DNA of 64,000 nucleotides. Source: Chrysophaeum taylorii. Taxonomy: Eukaryota; Sar; Pelagophyceae; Pelagomonadales; Pelagomonadaceae. Positions within the stretch are counted from its first letter, which is position 1, and each line of letters starts with the position of its first letter. Below, piece by piece: positions 5,375-19,275 of this stretch. The DNA is taken from NCBI GenBank assembly GCA_029834535.1, contig JAQMWT010000470.1:39915-103914 (forward strand). The letters are read 5' to 3'. The position numbers were made by a program, and so were the translations under genes. A model generated the notes under the pieces. The model ran no database searches. It had not been told where the DNA came from and saw only the letters and a program-made list of their open reading frames with translations.

Positions 5375-6112
5375 ACTTCCGACTTGGTCAGCCTACTGGA
5401 CGATGCCCTATTTGATAGCATGCTTATGTCATCAAGCTGCTCAAGCCCCTCGTTCTTCTAGCGGAAATGACTCCCCCGCATAAACAGGTGCACCGTGATC
5501 ATGTTTTCGTGGCCAATCTATCCATGCCACCCTTGATTCCACGGTTGACGTTGTCGACCGATATCCCGCGTATCTCTGCGGAGATTACCAATCGCGAGAG
5601 AGCTGGATCTGTGTAGCTCGCAGGAAAAACACAGGCGACAATGATATGCTTTCCTGGCCTAATCAACACCAAAGACGGCTTCTGGACATCGCTGATGATA
5701 TCACCGCTGTTCCTAAATCTCTCTGGCTATCAAAAGACCTTGCTAAGAACTGGATCAGACTATACCCTGATCCTCCTCTGGTGTCTTCACCTCAAACATT
5801 TCCACCATACTCCCGCGCAGGCTCTGTTCGGTTAAATATGAGTGAACTGGAAAACTTAAATCTCTTGTTCCTCAGGCTTCATTCCCGACAAGCACTCGAA
5901 CAAAGCACCCATAAACCGCATCATAAATGCACATACCACAATTTGGGTGTCATGCGGACCTCCAATAAACCACTACAGGGATCAGCTAATCCCGTTCGCC
6001 TCCAGGCATTTGTTACTCTCTACAATGTGTTCGCTAGGCTCTTGCCTAACTCACCTACTCCTGTGTCCTCATACGTCACGATTTTCGAAACTAACCAACC
6101 TGCACACAGGCT
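5375..6112 (+). pseudogene. DNA cytosine-5 methyltransferase-like remnant in A
   Basis: The assignment comes from comparison with element B. Around 5540-5620 one frame reads PAYLCGDYQSRESWICVARR, which parallels B's motif VIII-like segment (APAFGDVISKTRYLAVYARR). From 5646 the frame contains ITAVPKSLWLSKDLAKNW, AGSVRLNMSELENLN and FVTLYNVFARLL, matching B's TIPDDLWIANPALRG, ASKLSISENARICQ and YISHLLVFTLL in the same order. The catalytic PCQ segment is not preserved: the equivalent position (about 5430) reads FDSMLMSSSCSS. The region is decayed and then interrupted by a short repeat at 6107. Confidence 0.5.
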
Positions 6113-6195
6113 AACTAACTAACAAACTTCGGACCTCTCCCGGGCATGGGAGCCAGGCTGGTCCGGCAGGAGCCGGTCCAGGATCACAGAGCAAA
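6107..6195 (-). repeat. (CTAA)n double-hairpin repeat, copy R1
   Basis: Plus-strand (CTAA)n is followed by a conserved core of about 75 bp containing two small hairpins: CTCCC/GGGAG around 6138-6153 and a CCGGC-AGGA-GCCGG stem-loop. Three other copies lie at 58806, 59222 and 59357. On the minus strand the unit ends in a (TTAG)n tail, as SINE 3' ends do. This copy is inserted in retrotransposon A, between its methyltransferase-like region and the next domain. Confidence 0.75.
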
Positions 6196-6199
6196 ACAG

Positions 6200-7160
6200 G
6201 TTATTCCTTACAAACTCATCATCCAACTACAACATCCATTTTGTCTCTGGTGGTAAACACTCTGAAGGTAACCTCCTAGTTGAGAACAAGGCCAATAAAT
6301 ACACGGCCTCTATTGATCCATTTGGATCCACGTACACGCTCACAGCCTCCGACAATCCAGCCGACAAGTCTATTCGTTTGTTCCAAGGCAACCTTCGGCT
6401 TGTTCAGGCCTTTCCCCAGGTCGACACTGCTCGCGGCAACCTTCTTGCCATTCGAAATCTTCTCACTCAATGTGACGTTGTTATGCCGCACCGTGTCGCC
6501 TACTATTCAACCCACAACCAATTTTCTTCTAAGGACAAGCATTTTGACCTAGAAGACTATCACCTGTCTCATAGTCGCTATCTTGGCTATTTGCGGAACA
6601 GTGATCGCAAGCTTGGCTCTAAAATCCACTCAGCGCATCCCGCTTTGCCCACCATACGTGGATATGCCAACATCATCTTACTCGATCCACGAAATGGAAA
6701 GCTCCGATATCCAACGCGCCCTGAGCTCATCAGAACCAATAACCATACTCGTCCTCGAGAATCTTTCTTGCTTTCCCTCAAGAGTGATCTTTGTTGCGAT
6801 CTTCTCAGCAATGCCCTGCCGGCTGGTACCTACCATACTCTTTATACACATCTCTGTCGTATAGTTTTCGACATGAAGCCCCTTATGTTGGAACCTAACT
6901 TTCGACATGATACTGCAATTCTGAAGAAGACATATATGTCTACCTTTCTCACTCGCGAACTGTCTCCCTTCAGTCACAGTCCTGATACCATTCTCAAGCA
7001 GGCGCATTCGTGAGCCATATCTCTAACCGAAGCTGGACCGAAATGTCGCTAAACTACCGCTCCTCAGGAAATGTACCTGAAGATGCACTTGCTTCGGCAG
7101 TCTCAGATGAAATGAGCATTTTGACGCGGACTCCACCGATGACGGAGATGTACCCTCCTT
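6200..7160 (+). pseudogene. Conserved post-methyltransferase domain (unknown) in A
   Basis: The frame open at 6378-7013 and its extensions encode about 300 aa of unknown function. Pieces align by eye with the matching region of B (12720-13777): GYANIILLDPRNGKLRYP with PGFAAIDSRGRITLDDP, and DLLSNALPAGTYHTLYTHLC with KALANAVPHHVLQAKYNAV, in the same order. I do not recognise the fold. The end carries the second octapeptide copy (TEMSLNYR, 7038-7061), followed by a short acidic linker and the integrase. Confidence 0.5.
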
Positions 7161-8340
7161 AGATCCACGTACTGAGCTTAAATTCAGCGTACGTTGGAAG
7201 AAGCACATACCCGTAATATCGATTCCTCGCAAGTCTCTACCGCATGGCACAGTGGAGCATCAAAATGCTAAAGAACGGGCCAATCGTTTCCATCAGACGC
7301 ATCATTGCCCTGACGACGTTGCAGCAAATGCCCCGGACGTATTTACACGTCCTGTTTTCACTGCCTCTGACATCCCATACAGGGATATCTGCATCGATTG
7401 CATCTGTCATAACAAACGTCACCGCCATGACCATCATAACCAAACCAAGCCCAATTTCGAGCAAACTCACCAACCAGGTGAAGTCTGGGCATGTGATGGA
7501 GGCTATGCCACTATTCCCTCTGAATGGAGTGGCTTCACTCATATCATCCTGTTCATCTCTCATACTTAGTCGCGCGGCTAGTTCCGCTGTCAAGAGTCAA
7601 GATAAACCAATGCCCATTACCTTCGCAGACTGCCTCGCCTTCAGCTTCACTGATTTCCAAAATGGTCTCCCTGTAATCGAGACCTTCCGTGTCCCAGTCA
7701 CTCAATTTCTTACATCCTTTACGCACGTGGACCTGCACGATGCCGTGGGTTCTATCTATGCTCCCGATGATCCTTTATCGTTCTTAGAGTTGTCCGCTTT
7801 ACTGTCCATGCGTGCTCCAATTGTGGCTTCCCTCGCTCTCTACCCCAGCAATTAAGGCTACCGTTTGCTCACGTGGATCAAAGAAAGAGAATGTACTAGT
7901 CAATCACTACTATTCAACCTGCTTCATCGATGGTGTCCCGAAACACTTAAGCACGGACATCTATCGGAAGAAGATATCTTCCGTACCACCGACTGCAGTC
8001 ACTGACCATTTGTCTAGCCAAGAGTATCTGGACAAAAGCTATTTGCCTGCGTCTGTGGTCGCTGCTCTCATCTGCTGTGCGTGCATAAATACCGATCACG
8101 CTAAGGGCAGTGTACTAATCATGGCGCGCAACTACACGTTATATCACCCACCGTGCGTAATATGGCCTGCTGGTCATCTTCGTGCAACAATTATCAGAAC
8201 GTATTACGTTCCCACAGACCTCAAGACTCTAATACTAAAACATATCTCGCCGCAATCCGATCTGCCCACGGATATCATACTGCATCACCAACGTCGAGTG
8301 ACTCAAACCAATCTACTCTGGCCCTTAACCTTAACCTAAC
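7160..8340 (+). pseudogene. Integrase remnant of retrotransposon A
   Basis: The frame through 7252-7569 contains an HHCC-type zinc-binding domain (RFHQTHH followed by CIDC) and then GEVWACDGG with THIILFISHT, the typical start of the rve catalytic core with its first Asp. After a stop near 7567 the core continues only as short shifted frames; I cannot identify the second Asp or the Glu. A C-terminal piece (NMACWSSSCNNYQNVL) reads to 8344. Known role of the family: insertion of element cDNA into the genome. This copy is inactive. Confidence 0.7.
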
Positions 8341-8573: not shown

Positions 8574-9465
8574 TTGTTGTCCAGCAAGTTTCCTCAGCTC
8601 TACGCTGAGATTACTGATGTGACCGAAATGTCGTTAAACTATCGGGACCAATCAACAGGTGGCTCATCCGCTGTTGTATCCCAACCCCCGTGTTCTCCTC
8701 CAACCACATCATTTACCCCACAAGCTTACTTTGATGCACGAACCGCTAAAGTCAGTGCACTCAAATGCACTCACTCAACGAATCGATGTGCTTCAGGCCC
8801 TGACCGAAAGGCAAGCCCAGAAGATCAAACAATTATCCCCAGACAACAACAAGGGATCAATTCCAGACGCCCAACTCCTTCAACTTCGGCATTATCATAT
8901 GCTCCCCTTCGGCTTCCCTCTCTGCAACCAGATGCTACTGAACTTCTACATGATCCCTTTGTCTCGTCCCTTTTCCGAGGTTCGACTAGATGACTTGCAG
9001 CTAGGCGACCTCATGTCCCAAGTTCTGGATCGCCTTCTAGCCCTTACTTACCGCTTGGTTCCCGACATTGCTCATCTCAGTATAACAACTCCTCTTCAAC
9101 ACTGGAAAATGATCCTCCGAGTGATGGCGACGACGTCCAACCCATCAACGAGTCCGATTAAATTATGTTGGACCAGCTTGAAGCTAAGCCTTCCTCGGCG
9201 ATATCTCCTATGTCCACACTTCTACCGAAATCTTTCCCTTCAGGTGCACTTGTCAATAATTTCAGAGGTGTAACATCTTTGACTCAACCTTCCAAGTCCC
9301 CGCGACAAGCTGCCTACTCCAACTCTCCATCCTAAGCCACACACACATCACCACCATTCTCCTTCCGCTGCTTTCTCTTGAGCCATTAGAGAACAGTAAT
9401 TTCAACTGTGTTACCCTTCAGCAGAGCGATGGGCAGTGGTAGTCTGCCCTCGAATCTGTCTTTAA
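8574..9465 (+). pseudogene. Linker and truncated RT start of retrotransposon A
   Basis: The third octapeptide (TEMSLNYR, 8622-8645) opens a Ser/Pro/Thr-rich linker typical of the region between copia integrase and reverse transcriptase. At 9380-9465 a frame reads EPLENSNFNCVTLQQS..W.SALESVFKC, similar to the conserved copia RT entry (W..A...E...L). The homology stops at about 9466, so the RT palm and RNase H are absent. Confidence 0.5.
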
Positions 9466-9570
9466 ATGTCGACTGCTAAGAGGGGTGTGTGTGTGGGGAG
9501 CATGAAGGATGTGGGTGGGTTTGTGGGGTATGAGGGATGTGCCTGACGGGCGGAGATAAGTCTCCTAAAA
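9466..9570 (+). repeat. Dispersed G-rich repeat, copy D1
   Basis: Sequence from 'ttaaatgtcgactgctaagagg' through a GT-rich tract and 'agcatgaaggatgtgggtgg' recurs as a 59-bp insert at 10334-10392 (opposite strand) and, more diverged, at about 63895-64000 (opposite strand). D1 and the window-end copy also share the next about 45 bp (to 'gacgggcggag'). It starts exactly where retrotransposon A is cut off. Confidence 0.8.
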
Positions 9571-9808
9571 CGAGGACAGCCGGTGTGAATAACACAGCGT
9601 TTTCTGAAATCAAAAGGTGCTAAAGTTAAGGGAACCAACCCTAGAATAGGGGGTACTAACTCTAATTCAAATTTTCTATCTCTACGCCCCTCACAGATTG
9701 AACTCGGTGAGCGAAATCTGGATCAAACTAAGCAGGAAGCGTCTTACCATCGACAAGAACATAGAGAGTGTTCTGGACAGAGTCGTACGGTGGAAGAGTA
9801 GTAACTAA
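9571..9808 (-). other. 3' non-coding region of retrotransposon B
   Basis: AT-rich sequence between the RNase H stop and the dispersed repeat D1. It may contain the 3' LTR, but no matching 5' copy is present in the window, so ends cannot be set. A (CTAA)3 run at 9806-9817 lies at the stop codon without the double-hairpin core. Confidence 0.4.
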
Positions 9809-10405
9809 CTAACTAAAAAAAGTAACTTGATGTGATGGGGGTGAAGATGATGTAGAGTGAACACCGTAGGCGTTTTTGAACTTGTGGAATAAATTGCGTG
9901 GAAGAAGCTTGGGAAAGTGATCAGCGACCTGGTAGTGAGTAGAACACCAGAGAGGACGAATGACCGAGTTGGCATGGTAGTCACGAATACGAAATTCTTG
10001 TAAGTTGATATGACGAGAGGGAGCACTGACTTTAGGGTGATCAGCGACATGCAATGCGCTAGCGTTATCAATAAGCAGGGGGATAGCGTGAGCTTGATCA
10101 CGTGAAAACAAATAAGGGTGAGAGGAGAAGAGTTTGTGGAACCAGTGACATTCATCGGCGGCTGCGCTGGCGGCGATGAGTTCAGCTTCCATGGTGCTTT
10201 TGGCAGTAAGAGTTTGGCGTTTGCTAGACCAGAATACGAGATTGCCAAAGACGAAAATACATGCACCAGAATGGGATCTTAAGCGAGGGTCAGGACGGTC
10301 AGCGAATCTGGCATCAGTAAAACAAATAATGGGCCCACCCACATCCTTCATGCTCCCCACACACACCCCCCTCTTAGCAGTCGACATTTAAGAACAAATA
10401 ATGGG
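9809..10405 (-). pseudogene. RNase H domain of retrotransposon B (interrupted)
   Basis: Copia-type RNase H: FTDARFADRPDPR...SHSGACIFVFGNLVFWSSKRQ, then STMEAELIAASAAADECHW, LLIDNASALHVA and PSRHINLQEF.IRD. The catalytic Asp of TDA, the Glu of EAE and the Asp of IDN are all visible, and the end (QVADHFPKLL) matches the family's AD..TK.L block. The frame is split from the upstream RT by a 59-bp insert at 10334-10392 that brings an in-frame TAA; the ATG inside the insert would restart the reading frame. Confidence 0.88.
10334..10392 (-). repeat. 59-bp dispersed-repeat insertion (D2) with 13-bp direct duplication
   Basis: The insert is flanked on both sides by the same 13 bp (plus strand 'aacaaataatggg', 10321-10333 and 10393-10405). 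Removing the insert and one duplicate rejoins the RNase H frame exactly (SPIIC-FTDAR). The insert matches 9466-9530 in inverted orientation. The net addition is 72 bp, a multiple of three, but it contains TAA on the coding strand. Confidence 0.85.
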
Positions 10406-11420
10406 CGAACGAAGATGATGCAGTTCAAAATAGGTGCCAATCAGATGATGAATAAAGGGCGTAATAGAGGGGCTGTCGGATGAATAGTCGAGTGAATCAT
10501 TAGGAGTACCCTTCAAGTAGCGAAGTAAAACATATAAGTGCAGAAGGTGGGTCTGAAGGTGGGTCTGCTCACGGATGTGCATACCCTGGCAGCATTTGTT
10601 GCACAAAGTAGTATATCGGGGCGACATGTGACAGACAAGTAAATACTAGTGCCACAGTAGTGAGGAAAAAGTTTGCGAAATACGTCTAAAGTAGGAGCCA
10701 AGTCAGAGAGAAGCTTAGCAGAAGGTTTTTGAATAAGAATGTCCGAGTAGGGGACGTCCATAGTATGGAGGTTGGGCTTATGCTCGGTGAGCATCTTGGT
10801 GATCTTCGCTGCTACATTCATAGTGAGGTGACCAGCGGAGACATTGTAGTGTACATCGATACCAAGGAAGGATCTGATGTTATCATGCCACGTACCTTTG
10901 CCATATTCCTTCTCCAGAGCGGTGCGAAGAGATGTAATTTTGGCAGTGTTGGTACCAGTGATCAATAGGTCATCGACTGAGACGGATAGTAGAACCCATC
11001 TGTTGATAGATCGACCCCAACTGATATAGAGGCAAGTGTCGACTTGTGAGCGTTCGAACTCAGGTTGTCGAAGAAGCGAGTCGAGCCCAATGTTCCACAA
11101 CAAAGCTGACTGTTTGAGGCCATAGAGAGCCTTGACGAGTCGGAGAGCGAGCTTTGACTCTGGGTGGTTCTTCTGTATATGCTGGATGGAATTTTTCGAG
11201 ACACGTATTCCTCGAGGTAAGTGAATCCATACCGGGCGATCGAGTGCCGATTGGATGAATGCCTGAGGAATGTCCGCGTAAAGGTTCAAGCTTAAATGCA
11301 CCATTGGAGCACAATCCTTCAATTTCTTTGCGAATCGAAGCGATATGCTTTAACTTATCTTCTTCGCTGAGTCCTTTGAGTTCGACAATCTTCTCAGGCT
11401 CATAGACAATATCTTCAGCA
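10406..11420 (-). pseudogene. Copia reverse transcriptase of retrotransposon B
   Basis: Conserved copia RT blocks appear in order: EDKLKHIASIRKEIEGL (family W..A...E...L entry), YADIPQAFIQSALDRPVWIHLP (D...AFL.G....V.M..P), LVKALYGLKQSALLWN, and LLSVSVDDLLITG with the catalytic VDD at about 10967-10980. LRYLKGT and the approach to RNase H follow in frames ending at 10388. At least two frameshifts (near 11330 and 10600) break it, so this copy is inactive although the active-site residues remain. Confidence 0.88.
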
Positions 11421-12830
11421 GTCACGAGTTGTAACACGACATGGTCGATGTGCTGCAAGTCATAGTCCATGACTTCATGGATAGTATCTTGATTCGGATC
11501 ACTTTGACTTAGGAAGAGGTGTCCGAGTTCGCCAGAATCATGCACGAAGGCATGTCTGTGACGAGAAGCTAAGTGGTAGTGCTGATGCGCTGAGATGTCC
11601 CATAAAAGGGAGGAGTTCATACAACATAATTCTTGGTTCCATTGACGCGCATAATACTCTGCCGGTGACAGTTCGTCGTGGCACACATAGTTCTCGAGAA
11701 CAGAATTGTCGTTGTCCAGGTGGTCGACCAATACAGATGAGTGGTGCGGCTTCCTTGGGAAGTCGACGCACAAGAGTTCTGCGTTGGTTTCTTTCTGCAG
11801 ATCCAGTGCAGTGCCGCCCATGATACCATAGTCTTGTGTGGTATTTGCTAGGAGACATCCTTTCGGGACATCATTTGGCGGCTTAGCATCCCTTCTAATG
11901 TTGAGATCAGATGCGATGCTGACGGCATGGCCCTGGTGCAGAGCGCTGACACTGATGATGAACATCAATGTGCTGGACATGTTGGCTGTGGCGCGAGTCG
12001 TGGATTGCTCCTGCTGGTATTTCCAGTTGCGACCATACTCTGAAGCGACAATGCGTCTGGTGAAAAGCTTTCCATCGTCGACACGTTTCACAATATAGAG
12101 AGGATCTTTGGGAATGCGGAATCCGCGCTCGTCCTTGAGATCTGCCTTGAGTTTGTCACTCTGGTTGCGATGCACGAGATCTGGGGTAAAACCTGAATCG
12201 TCGAGAACAACCTCTAGGCGATCCTTTCGTTTGGGCATCGGAATGCTACCATCCGGCGGAGGTGGCCGGTTGAGGAACGAAAAATCCTGTTCGGGTGTCT
12301 CGTCGCTGACGGGACTTGGATCAGCAGCGGAGGTTGGATCCGGTTCTTTGTGCTCGTCGTCATCGTCGGGTTTGTCATCCTGGTCGTCATCTTGAGTCTC
12401 GCCCTCATTTTTCGATTCCTGTCTAGCTTCCGGCATTTGCTGTTCGCTTATAGCTGGGAGCGGGTCCTCTTGCCGTGCCTCTGTTGGGATCTGCGTGAGT
12501 GCTTTGATCCGTTCGGTCTCCTTGTTGCGGCTGACTGGCAAGTCTGCATCAACGTGGAAGTCGTTCGAGGCGACGATTTTCCATATCGCCCCTGATGTAC
12601 AAGCAGGATAGAGCTATGAACATCACGGATAAATCGGTACGTGCCGGGGAGGTTTGGGACGTAATTGTTGCTGTTGAGGTAGGAGGCGGAGACGCTGGAG
12701 GGTTCCAGCTTGTGGCTTTTAGGGTAGACAAAGGTGACAGGTTCGCCAAAGGGAAGGAGCTTCAAGAGCGGTGCCATGGGTGACATGATGCGCCGGGGGA
12801 CTTTTGGCGTGCTGAATGGTGCCGGGCTTG
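11400..12830 (-). pseudogene. Integrase C-terminal/linker region of retrotransposon B
   Basis: The upstream part reads LLKLLPFGEPVTFVYPKSHK...NLPGTYRFI, similar to the copia segment after the integrase core (fG..v....p..k...........G.Y.v). Then comes a long acidic linker (DDDQDDKPDDDDEHKEPDP) and a poorly conserved region rich in His and Ser leading to RT. The integrase zinc finger and D-D-E core, expected just upstream, are not visible: the unknown domain runs directly into this segment. Confidence 0.55.
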
Positions 12831-13777
12831 TGCAAGGGGGGCAGAGCGGCAGTCGAAGCGCTGGGGGGGCTGGGTCGCTTGTCAACATGGACTTTAGCAA
12901 CGGTTGCCTCGGCAAGAAGCGTCTCGAGGTTTTTCGATTTGCTTGGCTTGCGGATCGCATCATGGTGAGCATCTGCTACGGCATTGAAGAGGGATGTGAG
13001 GTTGAGGTCCTCCTCTGCTAAGAGACGGCTGGAGATGTTCAGCAAGAATTCTGCAACCTGGTTGATGTCTCCGGGGCTGGGGATGCCATTGCGTATTGTT
13101 GCCCATTCGATGTGAAAGTTCACGTGGTGGTGCGATTCGTGGAGTGCGAGGACAGCGTTGTACTTGGCCTGCAGCACGTGGTGCGGGACGGCGTTGGCCA
13201 GTGCCTTAAACGCGAAGTACGGCGGGTGTTGTTGGAACAGGCAGAGCAGTTCCGGGTCCGAGTGGTGTCCGAACTTTGCGATTTCGTTGAGGGTCGCATA
13301 GCGGATGTGGTCTGGAGAGATCAGCAGCAAGGCGTTGGAGTAGCTCGTGTTGGTAGGGTACGAGCCAGTGACCGAGTAGCACTTGGTGCTTTTCTGAAGC
13401 GTGTCTCCGATGTGGCCGACATAGTCCGCGTAAGTGGGACGTGCTTTGGACATTAGGAGTCCCTTGGGGTCATCGAGAGTAATTCGCCCTCGCGAGTCGA
13501 TCGCGGCAAAGCCGGGATGAGAGCGATTCATGTAGTGGACCCAAGTGGACGGGCGCGAGCAGCTGTGAGTGACGGCCAAGGAGGTGGTGTAGGCGACGAC
13601 CAGAAAGGCGGTGCCCTTGGGAACATCCAGGGAAAAGGCGTGCGTTGGGGAGAAGACTGCGGGTTGGTGGGAACAGTCCAATATCTGAGGGGGCCTGGAG
13701 TGTAGGGTGAGGGAAGCGCGCGGGAAGTAGCCACAGGCGACCGCAGTAGCGACGGTGCCGGTGATGGCTCCATCCAA
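12719..13777 (-). pseudogene. Conserved post-methyltransferase domain (unknown) in B
   Basis: One open frame of about 350 aa between the methyltransferase and the pol part. The first two thirds parallel the same region of A (PGFAAIDSRGRITLDDPKG; KALANAVPHHVLQAKYNAVLAL; FLLNISSRLLAEEDLNLTSL). The last third is a Lys/Pro/Ser-rich tail. I do not recognise the fold; the helix-rich middle could be a capsid-like or nucleic-acid-binding module, but that is speculation. Confidence 0.55.
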
Positions 13778-13789
13778 ATGGTAAACACA

Positions 13790-14925
13790 TTAGGACTCTG
13801 AGGCATGAAAGCAGCGGAGGGTGTTCCAAGCGGCGGGAGTTGGATGTTGCGACAAGTGATTGTGCAGCAAAGTGAAAACCAGGAGATGGGAGATGTAAGT
13901 CATGGTAGCGTAGGGAGTGCCGTCGGCATCTAGACCGAGATCCGTGAAGGGCTTGGTGAAGCGTGTAAGCATTTGACAGATGCGGGCATTTTCGGAAATC
14001 GAGAGTTTAGAGGCGTTGGCGGGAGCGTAGGAAAAGGTGGCCTTGTGCTGGTAATAGGTCAAGGTGGAGCGGGACACGGTGCCACGAAGGGCGGGGTTGG
14101 CGATCCAGAGATCGTCAGGGATAGTCTGGCTGGGGTCCAGAAGTGGAACAATGCTCGGATCAGCGGAGGAGATGTTAACCAAGGAGAAGCGGTTTTCTCG
14201 AGGTTGTACTCGGTGAGCGGGCGTCGGGCATAGACAGCGAGGTAGCGGGTCTTGCTTATGACGTCGCCAAAAGCGGGGGCATTGTAGACACCGGAGTGTC
14301 GGAAGTAACCTAAGCGCTGATAGCATTTGGCGCGTTGGGTGTACTCGTGATGAGTTCGACGTTCTTGACAATGGCGTAGGTCGGGAGCGTGCAGGGAACA
14401 AAGCGGATTTGTTCTGTGACGAAAAGGTCGGCGGTCACCGGAGTGGCGTAGCCGTCGTATTCTTTCATTACACTCAAATGTTGACATGGCAGTGTGAAAA
14501 CTGCAAAGTCGAAATGAGGTAGTCGTATTTTGCCGGTTTGCAGAGCGGCATTGAGCTTTCTTAGATCCGCATAATGCTGAGCGCGCGGGAAGAGTTGTTG
14601 CGCGCGGGCGCGCATAATAGGGTGAATTCCACAGGTGACCACGACAGTAATACGTTTGTTGAAGCGTTTGCGAAAAGAGGTAAAGCCTTCTTGGTGGAGT
14701 CCACCTGCAATAATAGCTGTTTTTAGCGGAGGGGGTTGTGCTTGCACAGAGAGGTCCGCTGAGCCAGTGAATGCATATTGGACGACAGTACGCGGGAGGC
14801 TAATGAGTTCCGATAGGAATATGGAATGATGCCGTAACTTGGTAAAATCCAGCACGTGGGATTGCGAGCGTGTCTTTGCGACATCCTGCGTGATGTGTGC
14901 AAGTTCATCCTTGAGTGGCATTCGG
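13790..14925 (-). pseudogene. DNA cytosine-5 methyltransferase of retrotransposon B
   Basis: C5-methyltransferase motifs are readable in order over three frames. Motif I region: AIIAGGLHQEGF. Motif II: VVVTCGIHPIMRARAQQLFP. Motif III: YADLRKLNAAL. Motif IV: FDFAVFTLPCQHLSVM, with the catalytic Cys in PCQ at about 14481-14489. Motif VI: PTYAIVKNVELI, where the usual ENV reads KNV, so the catalytic Glu is replaced. Motif VIII: YNAPAFGDVISKTRYLAVYARRP, after a frameshift near 14340. The C-terminal part (ISENARICQ..., TYISHLLVFTLL), after another shift near 14200, fits motifs IX-X. The family methylates C5 of cytosine in DNA. Position directly after the element's protease argues that it belongs to the retrotransposon and was not a separate insertion. 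Confidence 0.75.
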
Positions 14926-15079
14926 GTTCCGGTGTGAAACTAAGCACAGCGCGGAATGTTTGCTTTGGATGAGACGGCAGGGACAACAGGCCATTGGTTT
15001 GGCGATTGGCGAGAACTATTGCTGTTTTTCCTAGAAGCGTCTTATAATCGTGGGGATCCGCGGTCGACGTGTTCATAAG

Positions 15080-15480
15080 CTCATAAAGGTATGGTTCGTG
15101 TGGCAATGGCGGGTCGGTTGCTTGGACGTTCAGAGCTTTGAGCTGAGATGTCGCGATAACCTGTAGACCTTTTCGGAATTGCGGGACGACCAGAAATACG
15201 AGATATAATGCGTAACCTGTTGATTCTTTTATATCCTTTGAGGAGAGACCTGCGGCCTGCAAGTACAACGGTTTGACACCGATGAAATGGCTGGTTAAGG
15301 TGCCTCTTCCCATACGTATGGTGTGTTCGGGAATCCGGCGTATGGACTCGGGAACAAAGTTGAATTGTGCGAGTGAAGCAAAAGGATGCGCCACCGTCAA
15401 TTAAAGAAGTTTCAGTGCCGGGTCCATTGCATCCGTGCAGCGAGTTAGTCTTCTTTGAGGTCTTTCCTGGAGTGTAAGTG
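15080..15480 (-). pseudogene. Retropepsin-like protease of retrotransposon B
   Basis: ETSLIDGGAS (about 15385-15412) is an aspartic-protease active site of the D-S/G-G-A type. A frameshift follows, then FNFVPESIRRIPEHTIRMG, GTLTSHFIGVKPLYLQ and YALYLVFLVVPQF, typical of retropepsin beta strands. It would cleave the element's polyprotein. It is followed, after about 50 codons, by the methyltransferase frame. Confidence 0.7.
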
Positions 15481-15601
15481 GCACAAAGAAAATCTGCGAC
15501 TCTGGGGGAGATTGTGGATGAGGTCGGGAAATTCGTCATCGTGAGGCTTGGTGCCTGATTGAGTAAGATGTGGTTGGCGGCACAGGCGTCGTCGGCAACC
15601 A

Positions 15602-15907
15602 TCAGCGAAAAAGCTGACTCTGGTGTAGAGCACGCCTGTAGTCACTGTGACGTTGTGCGTAGTCTTCGGCGGAATCATCTTCATCGTGGATTTCGGGGAT
15701 GGTGTCGTCGTAGAGGCCTAGCTGTCCGTGGTCATCATAGAAACCGAGATGGCCTTGGTCATCTTTTTCGTCAGTTTCGCCCTCATCAGGTGGATCAGCC
15801 TGAGGATCGGATGATAGCACCTGAAGAAACTCCGCGGCATCGCAATCTGCTTCGGAGAGAAGTATCTCATCAGAGATGGTGGTCATGAGGTTGATTAGCT
15901 TGCTCAT
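15602..15907 (-). pseudogene. Acidic linker ORF between gag and protease in B
   Basis: A 101-codon frame rich in Asp/Glu with a short internal repeat (GHLGFYDD / GQLGLYDD). It is probably part of the gag-pol polyprotein, shifted from its neighbours by indels. No domain recognised. Confidence 0.45.
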
Positions 15908-15945
15908 GCGCTCGGAGTTGGACGTATGTTGGCGACCGGCTTGGC

Positions 15946-16905
15946 TTAGATTCCGTATGGTTTGGAGCTTGCGACGGACTTCACGAAGGGGGACCTTGAA
16001 TCGTTGGTCAGGAGTAGACGGCTTTGGTGGATGCGGTTGGGTGGGAAAGGTGACCTTGCGAAGGTGCGGGTGCTCGCGTTTGTCGGGGGTGACAGGAGCA
16101 GCACGGGGATTTTGCTTGTGCTTCGTTGGGGTGACAGGGGGAGCCTTGGGCTTGGGGCTGTCATTGATGTCATAGTACGACGGAGAGCGAGGATCGGGAG
16201 GCTTTTTTTTTTTGGCTTTTTGGGGTGGCGGGTGAGCTGCTTCTTCCTATAGGCGTAAAGATGTTGGATGAGATCATTGTCGTCATCTTCATCGAGGTTG
16301 GCTTCAGTGAGAAAGACGGCAGCAGGGTCGGTGTCGTCATTGGAGGCTTCATTGGGATCCGGAGGGATGTCATCTTCAGAGGCGGTGTCTTCTTCCTCGG
16401 TGAAGTGGAGGCCATGACGGCGGGAGCGAAAACGTGGATTATCCTTGTCCTTAGTCGGTAGACGACCAAAGTCAGCGACGAATCGCAACGGCTTGAAATT
16501 GAGGGTGGGATGAGGCTTAAGGTGAGCCCAAAAGTTGCGCTCGAAGGTGGAGATAACTGTGATGCGGGCGATCAGCCTGGGAAGGTGATTAATGGCTTCC
16601 TTGTCTTCGTCGAGTAATAGCGAGTCGTTTGGAGTACGTAGACAATTGGCAAGACGCGCGAAGCCCTTGATGAGTGTTGGGGCGCGGGAGTCAAGCAAGC
16701 TTGGGGGGTACTTGAAGCGAAGGAGTTGGCGGATTTCCTCGAGGATCTTGTCGTTGGAAAGCAGGAGAGAGGTCGACCATAAACCGGGGTTGAGTCTGCG
16801 GACTCTCTCACCGAAAAACCCGCCGATTTCGACCCGGATTTCGATATTGTCGCCGAGAGGGTGGCCTGGGGGGTTGCGTGAAGGTACAAGTGGCTCCAGG
16901 CCGAC
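15946..16905 (-). pseudogene. gag: gag-like region of retrotransposon B
   Basis: The frame is open from at least 16905 (VGLEPLVPSRNPPGHPLGD...) to 15946, about 320 codons. The N-terminal half is helix-rich (ILEEIRQLLRFKYPP, LIKGFARLANCLRTP, LIARITVISTFERNFWAHL), as expected for a capsid protein. The C-terminal half is acidic, then basic and Pro/Ser-rich (KKPKKKS, RSPFPPNRIH). No CCHC knuckle is seen. The role is inferred from position upstream of the protease. Confidence 0.55.
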
Positions 16906-16939: not shown

Positions 16940-17430
16940 CGACCCTGTGGCGAGGTGCGGCTAGTACTAAAACTAGTCGAAATCACCGTGTTCGCGAGTC
17001 TCTGCGGAAAGAACAGACGCGTCGATGGTGCAGTGAAATGTGTACTTGCGCTTGAGGCGCTCGGCCTCGCGCTGGCGTTCGATTCTAGCGTGCTCGAAGT
17101 GCGTTCCGTCAATCTCCGTCTTCGACGCCGGTGTGTTCGTCTCGCGCTTATCATTCGGGTTTGGGCGATGCTGAGACTTCTGCAACCTAAGTCCACTAGG
17201 CGTGGCGTCTTCACTGGAGGCTGTGAGCCTCTGTCCTCGACATCGTCGCTCTCGACGTGATCTGCGTCGGATACCTTGGCCATCTGGCGTTCGTCCTCGG
17301 CTCGTAAGTCCTCCGAACTTTCTCCATGGTGGCGACGGCTTCTTCAAGCGTTGAGTGGTGCCCACTTTCCTCCTCGTCGACTTCCCGTCGCCGGCGCGCC
17401 TCTCCAGACGTCCAGACAGATATAATAGTA
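16940..17430 (-). other. 5' region of retrotransposon B, partly coding-like
   Basis: Minus-strand frames at 16973-17365 and 17211-17453 are charged (DGTHFEHARIERQREAERLKRK; EVDEEESGHHSTLEEAV) and could be the N terminus of gag or a leader ORF. No LTR end is identifiable because a Helitron copy starts at 17431. Confidence 0.35.
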
Positions 17431-18468
17431 CAAGTGCAGGCCAGTAAGTTCACCTATCTCTAACCCCAGTAAGTTCACCTGGTCCCAGTAAGTTCACATA
17501 GTCCCAATCTCTAACCCCAGTAAATTCGGCGTAAGCCCACTCGTGCTCACATCCACTCACCCCACTCTCCTTCGAGCTCGTCGCTCTCACCTCCGCCAAT
17601 CTAAGCTGCTTTGATCCGTACACGCCGCTCGCCTTTGCGTTCACTCTAAAAACCCCTGTAAGTTCACTTGGTCTCAGTAAGTTCACCTGGTCACTAAGTT
17701 CACCTAGTCCCAATCTCAAACCACAGTAAGTTCACCTGGTCCCAGTAAGTTCACCTACCGTGCGCGTGTAGACGCCGGGAGGGGGCTTATCGGTATTGCG
17801 CAGCACGTGTGGGGTAGGGTGGAGTCGTCGACTCAGAAGAGGATATCCTCGGGGTTGCCAATCGACAGAGAGCCACGTAGAGCTGGACGTGGCAGAAGAC
17901 GGGCTTGGGCAAGAGGACGCCGACCTCGCGGGGCGTCTGGCCCTGGCTCTTGGTGATCGTTTGGCGTCGGTGGGGCTTGAGGGATACAGGTTGGAGGAGC
18001 CTCGGTGACACGACACGATCGATCATGTATCTGGTACCGTTGCAGTGGCCGTGCGACGGGTCGAGGTTGCGAAGACTTTAAGCTCGCGATCAAAGTCAGC
18101 ATGCCGTTGGTTGTCAGGGAGTTGAAAACTCGACTGTAAAGAGCGAGGCGTCGGCTTCCGACCCAACCTAGTCGGCCGAAAAGAACTCCGACGCCTCGTC
18201 TTCGGGAAAAAAAGGCCGCGGTCATGCGCGCGTTGTCAGCATCGACAACATCGTTTCGACGGGGCGTGAGAATGGCGCGCTGAAAGAGCCGCCGCGGGTC
18301 GTGGAAATAGTCTGCGAGGTCGCCGTAGACGGCTTGGAGGATCACTGTCTGGCTCTCGCGCCTACCTGATCCTTACTCTCGCGCCTATCTGATCCTTACC
18401 CTAAATCGAGGGACAAACAAACAGACAGACAGACAGACAGACAAACATCTGTCGATTAGTAGTTAGGA
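17431..18468 (-). mobile_element. Helitron-like element, copy H1
   Basis: A unit of about 1.04 kb on the minus strand, starting TCCTAACTACTAATCG at 18468 and ending GCACTTG at 17431. Two further copies lie at 61785-62850 and 62851-63840. Inside is a decayed Pif1/Helitron helicase C-terminus in several frames: AILTPRRNDVVDADNARM, FNSLTTNGM, RNLDPSHGHCNGTRYMI, ITKSQGQT and VGVLLPKPVFCHVQLYVALCR. The 3' 350 bp hold many copies of a 19-bp iteron (plus strand 'agtaagttcacctggtccc'). A (CAGA/CAAA)n tract lies near the 5' end. The copies share most of the same breaks, so this is a non-autonomous family. Confidence 0.85.
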
Positions 18469-19052: not shown

Positions 19053-19275
19053 TGTAGTCCTCTGATTTGCGCTCAAGCTCATGATCATGGTCTAGCTTGT
19101 CCCGTAGGTACGTAGACTTACATGTTAAATTAGGTGTAGTTCTACGTGTCGTCTGCCGTGTGCTGAGGCTAGGGGAATTAACCTGTTCCCGGAACTCTAA
19201 CCTGCCAGACTCGCACGGTGACGCGGGATGGTTCTTCAGTGACTTTACACAAATGCACTGTAGAATACTCTACAC
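19053..19275 (+). repeat. Dispersed repeat, copy 2 (matches 2125-2350)
   Basis: Same orientation as the copy at 2125-2350, with scattered substitutions and small indels. No retrotransposon gag follows it here, so it may be a solo LTR-type remnant. Confidence 0.65.

Follow-up and report, generated by a model that had tools for sequence, protein, structure and literature searches.

We analyzed a window of 64,000 nucleotides from the pelagophyte Chrysophaeum taylorii (GenBank assembly GCA_029834535.1, contig JAQMWT010000470.1, positions 39,915 to 103,914 of the forward strand); the term "window" denotes this whole stretch, and coordinates are counted from its first letter. The minus-strand interval 9387..16773 is a dead long terminal repeat (LTR) retrotransposon copy of the Ty1/Copia superfamily, hereafter element B, and comparison with its relatives indicates that the Copia pol polyprotein holds a C5-cytosine methyltransferase between the protease and the integrase. 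With a probability of roughly 0.6, the methyltransferase of the Copia element, kept in pol, would methylate cytosines of new cDNA before or during integration. An earlier note, made from the letters of the window, had placed the enzyme inside a copia-type element at 13790..14925. The placement in such an element is borne out by the sequences flanking its other copies in the same genome and by its relatives, which are Copia polyproteins.

Copies of the element in the genome and in the window

Using a 209-amino-acid piece of the window methyltransferase as the query against the genome (70.8 Mb, 697 contigs), we obtained at least 154 same-genome matches (150 of 267 candidates scored), some of them in frames of over 1000 amino acids. 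Same-genome loci are denoted by L-numbers, and proteins from public databases by P-numbers. Eighteen stretches of ~10 kb were fetched, picked mainly for long frames. Element sequence is present on the protease side of the methyltransferase in all 18, and on the integrase/reverse transcriptase (RT) side, too, in 17, the exception being L035. In L021 and L022, the protease motif, the methyltransferase and the integrase region share a single open frame that continues to the end of the stretch, and the L022 frame also holds the start of the RT (RVT_2, 1.7e-12). The rve match of L021 (0.0048) is under its cut-off and L022 has no rve match; integrase motifs are visible in the L022 alignment, which places them between the methylase and the RT, and the integrase region matches the solved structure 7z0h (4e-8). 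The backbone, with RVT_2 and an integrase upstream of the RT, is that of Copia, not of LINE, DIRS or Gypsy elements.

The two ends were compared for three insertions, C96, C3 and C314. The LTRs of C96 and C3 start with TAGAGA and finish with TCTCTA; the C96 insertion (9625 bp, LTR identity 89%) is bounded by identical 5-bp repeats CTCAC, and the C3 insertion (9440 bp, LTR identity 96.5%) by identical 5-bp repeats AGGAG, while the ends of C314 yielded partial repeat matches only. Open-frame copies with the same order, of the sort that the earlier note had suggested seeking, are L021 and L022. Because element sequence flanks the methyltransferase, the frames are open, and LTRs with target duplications enclose it, the methyltransferase moves with the element; these observations support its assignment to the retrotransposon rather than to a host gene. 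A host methyltransferase gene hit by an insertion of the element would account for the broken state of the window copy, and for nothing more. This explanation was rejected and has next to no chance of being correct, given the flanks on the protease side (18/18) and on the integrase/RT side (17/18), the single open frame, the LTRs and target duplications outside the domain, and the same domain order in public-database elements.

The window copy keeps part of a gag-like open reading frame (ORF), the protease, the methyltransferase, the RT and the 3' LTR. The order on the minus strand is the upstream-ORF remnant, the protease motif, the methyltransferase and the Copia RT. The element and its parts outside the methyltransferase are as follows:

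9387..16773, minus strand: element B, decayed Ty1/Copia retrotransposon copy (blastn against other copies; tblastn of open-frame copies; 3' LTR match)
16243..16773, minus strand: remains of the ORF preceding pol, corresponding to L022 ORF residues 363-537 (tblastn, 82% identity, 2e-82)
14879..15641, minus strand: protease region, with IDGGAS at 15384-15401 and a frame change near 15361 (tblastn, L021 pol residues 1-243)
10561..11280, minus strand: Copia RT (RVT_2) remnant, 64 residues of the N-terminal part missing (Pfam RVT_2; tblastn with L031)
10259..10621, minus strand: region after the RT, RNase H by position (tblastn, L031 residues 422-514, 63% identity)
9387..9685, minus strand: 3' LTR with an extra stretch of ~95 bp inside (matches the 5' LTRs of L021, L022 and L036)

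The upstream ORF has no Pfam gag match and is called gag-like by position only. The retropepsin of the earlier note stands as a motif; a Pfam protease match is absent both in the window piece and in the open-frame copies, and therefore the name rests on motif and position. Similarly, the copia RT in the same orientation is confirmed (RVT_2 on 10516-11349, E = 9.8e-20), and the RNase H is so named by its position, the region having no match to a Pfam model in this analysis. Element B has no integrase: ~700 bp are missing at 12801. A further ~213 bp are missing at 11279, in the RT region. The copy has also lost its 5' part past 16773, and with it most of the gag-like ORF, and its reading frame is broken near 15361, 14900, 14358 and 14150.

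The 3' part of element B contains an inverted repeat (9454-9519 and 10334-10399, 66 bp, 94% complementary), one arm of which lies mostly within the extra stretch of the LTR. A ~1-kb sequence 5' of the window copy (17430-18402) recurs beside L022, L026, L032 and L035 and adjoins the 5' LTR in L022 and L026; the element may thus have a preference for inserting into this repeat.

The methyltransferase domain

In the window, the domain is split over three frame pieces (14939-14358, 14358-14146 and 14158-12803). Its limits were set by aligning model residues 66-605 to M.HhaI and were transferred to the window by arithmetic:

13118..14732, minus strand: C5-cytosine methyltransferase domain, L021 pol residues 305-844 (tblastn; M.HhaI alignment of the model; Pfam)
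14682..14717, minus strand: motif I, AIIAGGLHQEGF, S-adenosylmethionine (AdoMet) site (tblastn and alignments)
14472..14492, minus strand: motif IV, LPCQHLS, catalytic Cys (tblastn)
14355..14375, minus strand: motif VI, degenerate, KNV instead of ENV (tblastn)
14233..14268, minus strand: motif VIII, GDVISKTRYLAV (tblastn)
13172..13309, minus strand: true motifs IX (HIRYATLNEIAKF, 13271-13309) and X (FKALANAVPHHVL, 13172-13210) (alignments, tblastn)

Motifs I, IV, VI and VIII lie where they had been read before. The reading of motifs IX and X inside 13790..14925 was wrong: the true ones are outside this interval, in a domain that extends to ~13118, and therefore the part taken for them falls in the insert between motifs VIII and IX. 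The Pfam DNA_methylase model, proposed earlier as a check, gave a divided answer: the window piece alone is below the cut-off (E = 0.0045, 16.9 bits versus 22), and the open-frame copies pass it (L021, 8.5e-8, 32.4 bits; L022, 4.6e-7, 30 bits).

The predicted fold, including motifs IX-X, is M.HhaI-like, and M.HhaI and M.HaeIII are the closest solved folds and methylase sequence matches. They differ from the Copia domain in being stand-alone bacterial enzymes, with 16-19% identity in the structural alignment, and in lacking the ~300 residues that the Copia copy has between motifs VIII and IX. Compared to solved structures, the window piece alone yielded weak, unrelated matches only. We then considered an alignment (A4) of four own-genome rows and 26 of the 34 domain-bearing public proteins described below. 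The catalytic Cys (motif IV), Glu (motif VI) and Arg (motif VIII) are invariant in all 30 rows, and Gly76 of motif I is present in at least 90% of them; the 26 public rows are merely 18-28% identical to the first row. Chance similarity was rejected on the basis of the predicted fold and the motif conservation.

Relatives, origin and other methyltransferases of the genome

With the own-genome methyltransferase domain as the query, no protein was found at E <=0.01 among 7994 candidates. The integrase-RT part of L022 retrieved seven proteins, the best of which, P0001 (2428 amino acids), contains DNA_methylase and RVT_2; the RT of P0001, in turn, retrieved 414 proteins at E <=1e-40, of which the best 120 were listed. 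The closest of these relatives (from ENA, JGI and other sources) we take to be mostly metagenomic. The domain was tallied with a local profile (seed including P0001, P0008 and P0009) on 126 public proteins and with Pfam on four of them and P0001. It was detected in 34 public proteins: 29 with a profile match longer than 200 residues, two with a profile match in the C-terminal part only (P0032, P0033) and three by Pfam only (P0040, P0041, P0048). All 34 are within the best 45 rows of the P0001 RT search, three of which are plant Copia. The domain order described above for the own-genome copies is also seen in public-database elements.

In the RT tree (63 rows, outgroup rows hand-chosen), a branch (100/99) has on one side all 41 rows bearing a DNA methyltransferase (DNMT), nine DNMT-free rows and, at the base, one outgroup row (P0082), and on the other 12 rows of ordinary Copia. 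On this tree, the DNMT label requires 5 changes, and the starred branches force 3; therefore, some losses, truncations or swaps are likely. The DNMT and RT trees have in common the subgroups {P0001, 8, 9}, {P0013, 15}, {P0018, 19, 42, 45}, {P0020, 21, 22, 29, 31}, {P0036, 43, 46, 50} and {P0027, 30, 34, 35, 37, 38}; the deeper order of the DNMT tree is without resolution, and P0010 and P0051 are placed differently. In a tree with host and Gypsy DNMTs, the canonical-looking domains of P0040, P0041 and P0048 are separate from the other Copia domains. Long branches dominate this tree and a single origin is not rejected (approximately unbiased test, p = 0.056), and therefore these three domains may represent a replacement, or swap, in that branch. 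Overall, the trees suggest that a deep Copia clade probably acquired the domain in a single ancient capture and has retained it, with later losses.

A second methyltransferase-bearing remnant, element A, is found in the same window:

5431..6869, plus strand: element A, diverged methyltransferase of the same clade (tblastn)
7123..7767, plus strand: integrase-region remnant of element A, downstream of its methyltransferase (tblastn)

Its catalytic part (5431-5741) matches best with P0034, P0037 and P0038 (tblastn, 1.6e-9 to 2.9e-12), and its motif IX-X part (6513-6869) with P0036, the matches to P0029, P0031, P0032, P0036 and P0045 ranging from 3e-4 to 4e-6. The integrase region matches P0002, P0030, P0034 and P0037 at 7219-7566 (1e-7 to 5e-6) and, more weakly, P0008, P0043, P0046 and P0050. 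Pfam found nothing convincing in the five pieces tried, including 7111-7566. Element A (5431-7767) is a second Copia element, more decayed than element B, from another branch of the clade, and thus two distant branches seem to be housed in one genome. Direct repeats of ~220 bp, 85% alike (2127-2344 and 19055-19274), flank the stretch with elements A and B; they may represent either the termini of an older insertion or copies of a dispersed repeat.

Scanned with Pfam for methyltransferases, the genome gave 121 matches, many with motif I only, and further enzymes of two kinds were noted. First, L044, L045 and L047 (contigs C235, C491 and C5) are, by their domain content, members of a large Ty3/Gypsy family whose pol contains a different C5 methyltransferase. 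In L044 and L047, the methyltransferase (FSGAGGSTLGL, SPPC) precedes RVT_1, RNase H and H2C2 integrase domains, and in L047 the methyltransferase, RT, RNase H and integrase are in one frame; L045 has the methyltransferase and an RT recognized by eye. The DNA_methylase match is over the cut-off in L044 (4.4e-5) and L045 (2.3e-5) and under it in L047 (0.0014), and a protease was not identified in these three loci. This type of domain occurs in at least 119 places of the genome (119 of 1058 first-look candidates scored), and some copies are 98-99% alike and open. Second, there are host methyltransferases: L040 (C621), a 2086-amino-acid frame with DNA_methylase at 7.9e-18 across nearly the whole profile, followed by a weak RING match (0.23), which by our reading of the sequence is DNMT5-like, and L039, a stand-alone frame of 360 amino acids. 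Among solved structures, the Rubisco large subunit of the host matches best 7yk5 and other form-ID enzymes of diatoms, which agrees with a stramenopile (ochrophyte) alga without proving one. Scans of IMG/VR found nothing with P0001, and 9 pattern matches, none confirmed, with the Gypsy methyltransferase domain.

Proposed function and its implications

Under the proposed mechanism, the methyltransferase would be produced within Gag-Pol, packed into the virus-like particle and cut free by the element protease. Its substrate would then be fresh cDNA, whose cytosines it would methylate by the time integration is completed, so that the new copy would enter chromatin already marked; the mark may protect the new copy where the host responds to unmarked DNA, or may determine the state of its chromatin. 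This is our first choice because the position in pol, between the protease and the integrase, puts the enzyme together with the cDNA. We infer, as the earlier note did, self-methylation by the element, and since relatives in the genome and in public sequences keep the active site, DNA marking is probably part of the life of these elements. The same sequence evidence also fits an active methyltransferase with its benefit elsewhere, i.e., one that marks target or neighbouring chromatin after integration or that damps the element to limit damage to the host. The adjoining integrase would put the enzyme at the integration site, and slower retrotransposition was also named as an option by de Mendoza et al. 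(2018; PMC5890265). Present sequence evidence does not distinguish this explanation from cDNA methylation; we regard it as unlikely, though worth keeping in mind.

The summed ratio of nonsynonymous to synonymous substitution rates (dN/dS) in 12 open-frame copies was 0.20 for motifs I-VIII, 0.19 for the insert and 0.24 for the C-terminal part; elsewhere in pol, it was 0.08 for the integrase (9 copies), 0.10 for the protease (6 copies), 0.32 for the stretch between the methylase and the integrase (10 copies) and 0.18 for the stretch after the integrase (5 copies). As judged from these ratios, the methyltransferase domain is under purifying selection; dS differences between regions hint at recombination. 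In 41 rows of own-genome loci (the window copy included, two places counted twice), the catalytic Cys is kept in 40 and the motif VI Glu in 36. The conserved active site, the predicted fold and the selection argue for a working enzyme.

It should be noted that the following observations weigh against our main explanation: (i) the domain, at 0.20, is under weaker purifying selection than the integrase and the protease, and the dN/dS ratios come from open-frame copies only, which favours low values; (ii) the motif VI Glu is replaced in 5 of the 41 rows, including two whose frame is open otherwise, and the motif VIII Arg is altered in L013 and L018 (L010 is readable two ways); (iii) no domain is seen in 8 of the best 42 relatives outside plants, be it by loss, truncation or a separate ORF; (iv) the first structure model, from a poorer alignment, had a predicted local distance difference test score (pLDDT) of 43.8 and was not used; (v) the mutational scar that methylation should leave at CpG is weak, with CpG transitions 1.18 times the non-CpG ones in 11 Copia copies (transversion control 0.98); and (vi) the CpG observed/expected ratio is 1.01-1.07 in five Copia copies versus 1.29-1.41 in three host stretches, a comparison confounded by base composition, which differs, too. 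The scar is absent from three Gypsy copies (0.93; transversion control 1.44). The methylation mark may lie in a different sequence context, be rare, or be missing from old copies.

Two of these points, together with the modest Pfam match, would be expected if the domain were a structural or nucleic-acid-binding relic that binds DNA or AdoMet and in which catalysis no longer matters, namely the weaker selection compared to the integrase and the own-genome copies that lost the Glu. The invariance of Cys, Glu and Arg in the 30 rows of A4, despite the 18-28% identity of the 26 public rows, speaks against a relic and makes it very improbable. The weak CpG scar also fits a domain that methylates RNA (genomic RNA or the tRNA primer), DNMT2-style, instead of DNA; RNA was suggested for LINE-borne enzymes, one of which was inactive on DNA in yeast (PMC5890265). 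We consider RNA methylation improbable.

LINE, DIRS and Gypsy elements have been described as carriers of DNMTs (de Mendoza et al. 2018, PMC5890265), and the dinoflagellate (Symbiodinium) and charophyte (Klebsormidium nitens) cases mentioned in the earlier note are found there. SymbioLINE-Dnmt and SymbioDIRS-Dnmt3 resemble the present case, as C5 methyltransferases inside multicopy retrotransposons under mostly purifying selection (Ka/Ks <0.2); however, their carriers are LINE and DIRS elements, whereas the element here is Copia, with LTRs, a protease and an integrase. The same paper gives the Copia superfamily of Symbiodinium as being without any DNMT domain. KnitGypsy-Dnmt3 is an LTR retrotransposon with the DNMT in the Pol polyprotein and is like the L044/L047 family in this respect; unlike it, the window element has a Copia RT and an integrase before the RT. 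One line in section 5 of PMC12344493, citing the 2018 paper, assigns members of DNMT3 to "LTR Copia and DIRS" elements, and so also puts a DNMT in LTR Copia, but that section gives no specific element. An opinion article about accessory domains mentions cytosine methylases in connection with Gypsy and DIRS (PMC6338049). DIRS-borne Dam-like adenine methylases and Sola1-1_Ec32 of the brown alga Ectocarpus, with ParB and N4C/N6A methyltransferase domains (PMC12477816), are likewise accessory genes of mobile elements; they differ in being amino-methyltransferases, not C5 enzymes, and in residing in DIRS elements or a DNA transposon. No description of this Copia clade was recognized in the accessible text of the literature searched, including PMC9998398 and PMC13076208, with subscription papers, preprints and supplements outside its scope. 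Within this literature, the deep Copia DNMT clade looks new, as does the presence of DNMT families of both Copia and Gypsy in a single genome.

Transposons are normally targets of cytosine methylation, and elements that retain a methyltransferase of their own do not fit this usual picture. The 2018 work left open whether such enzymes are a curiosity of dinoflagellates and one charophyte; here, many members of a deep Copia clade carry the domain, its active site is kept, and the same genome also has the Gypsy family. A broader proposal, to which we give a little less than an even chance, is that self-encoded cytosine methylation is an ancient standing step in the life cycle of the whole deep Copia clade, known to date from this alga and public sequences, and that Copia and Ty3/Gypsy elements of one algal genome separately took such enzymes into pol. 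If true, it would mean that selection for cDNA methylation by LTR retrotransposons is strong and has acted repeatedly. The many open-frame copies make the gain from DNA methylation testable, by long-read methylation calling and enzyme assays.
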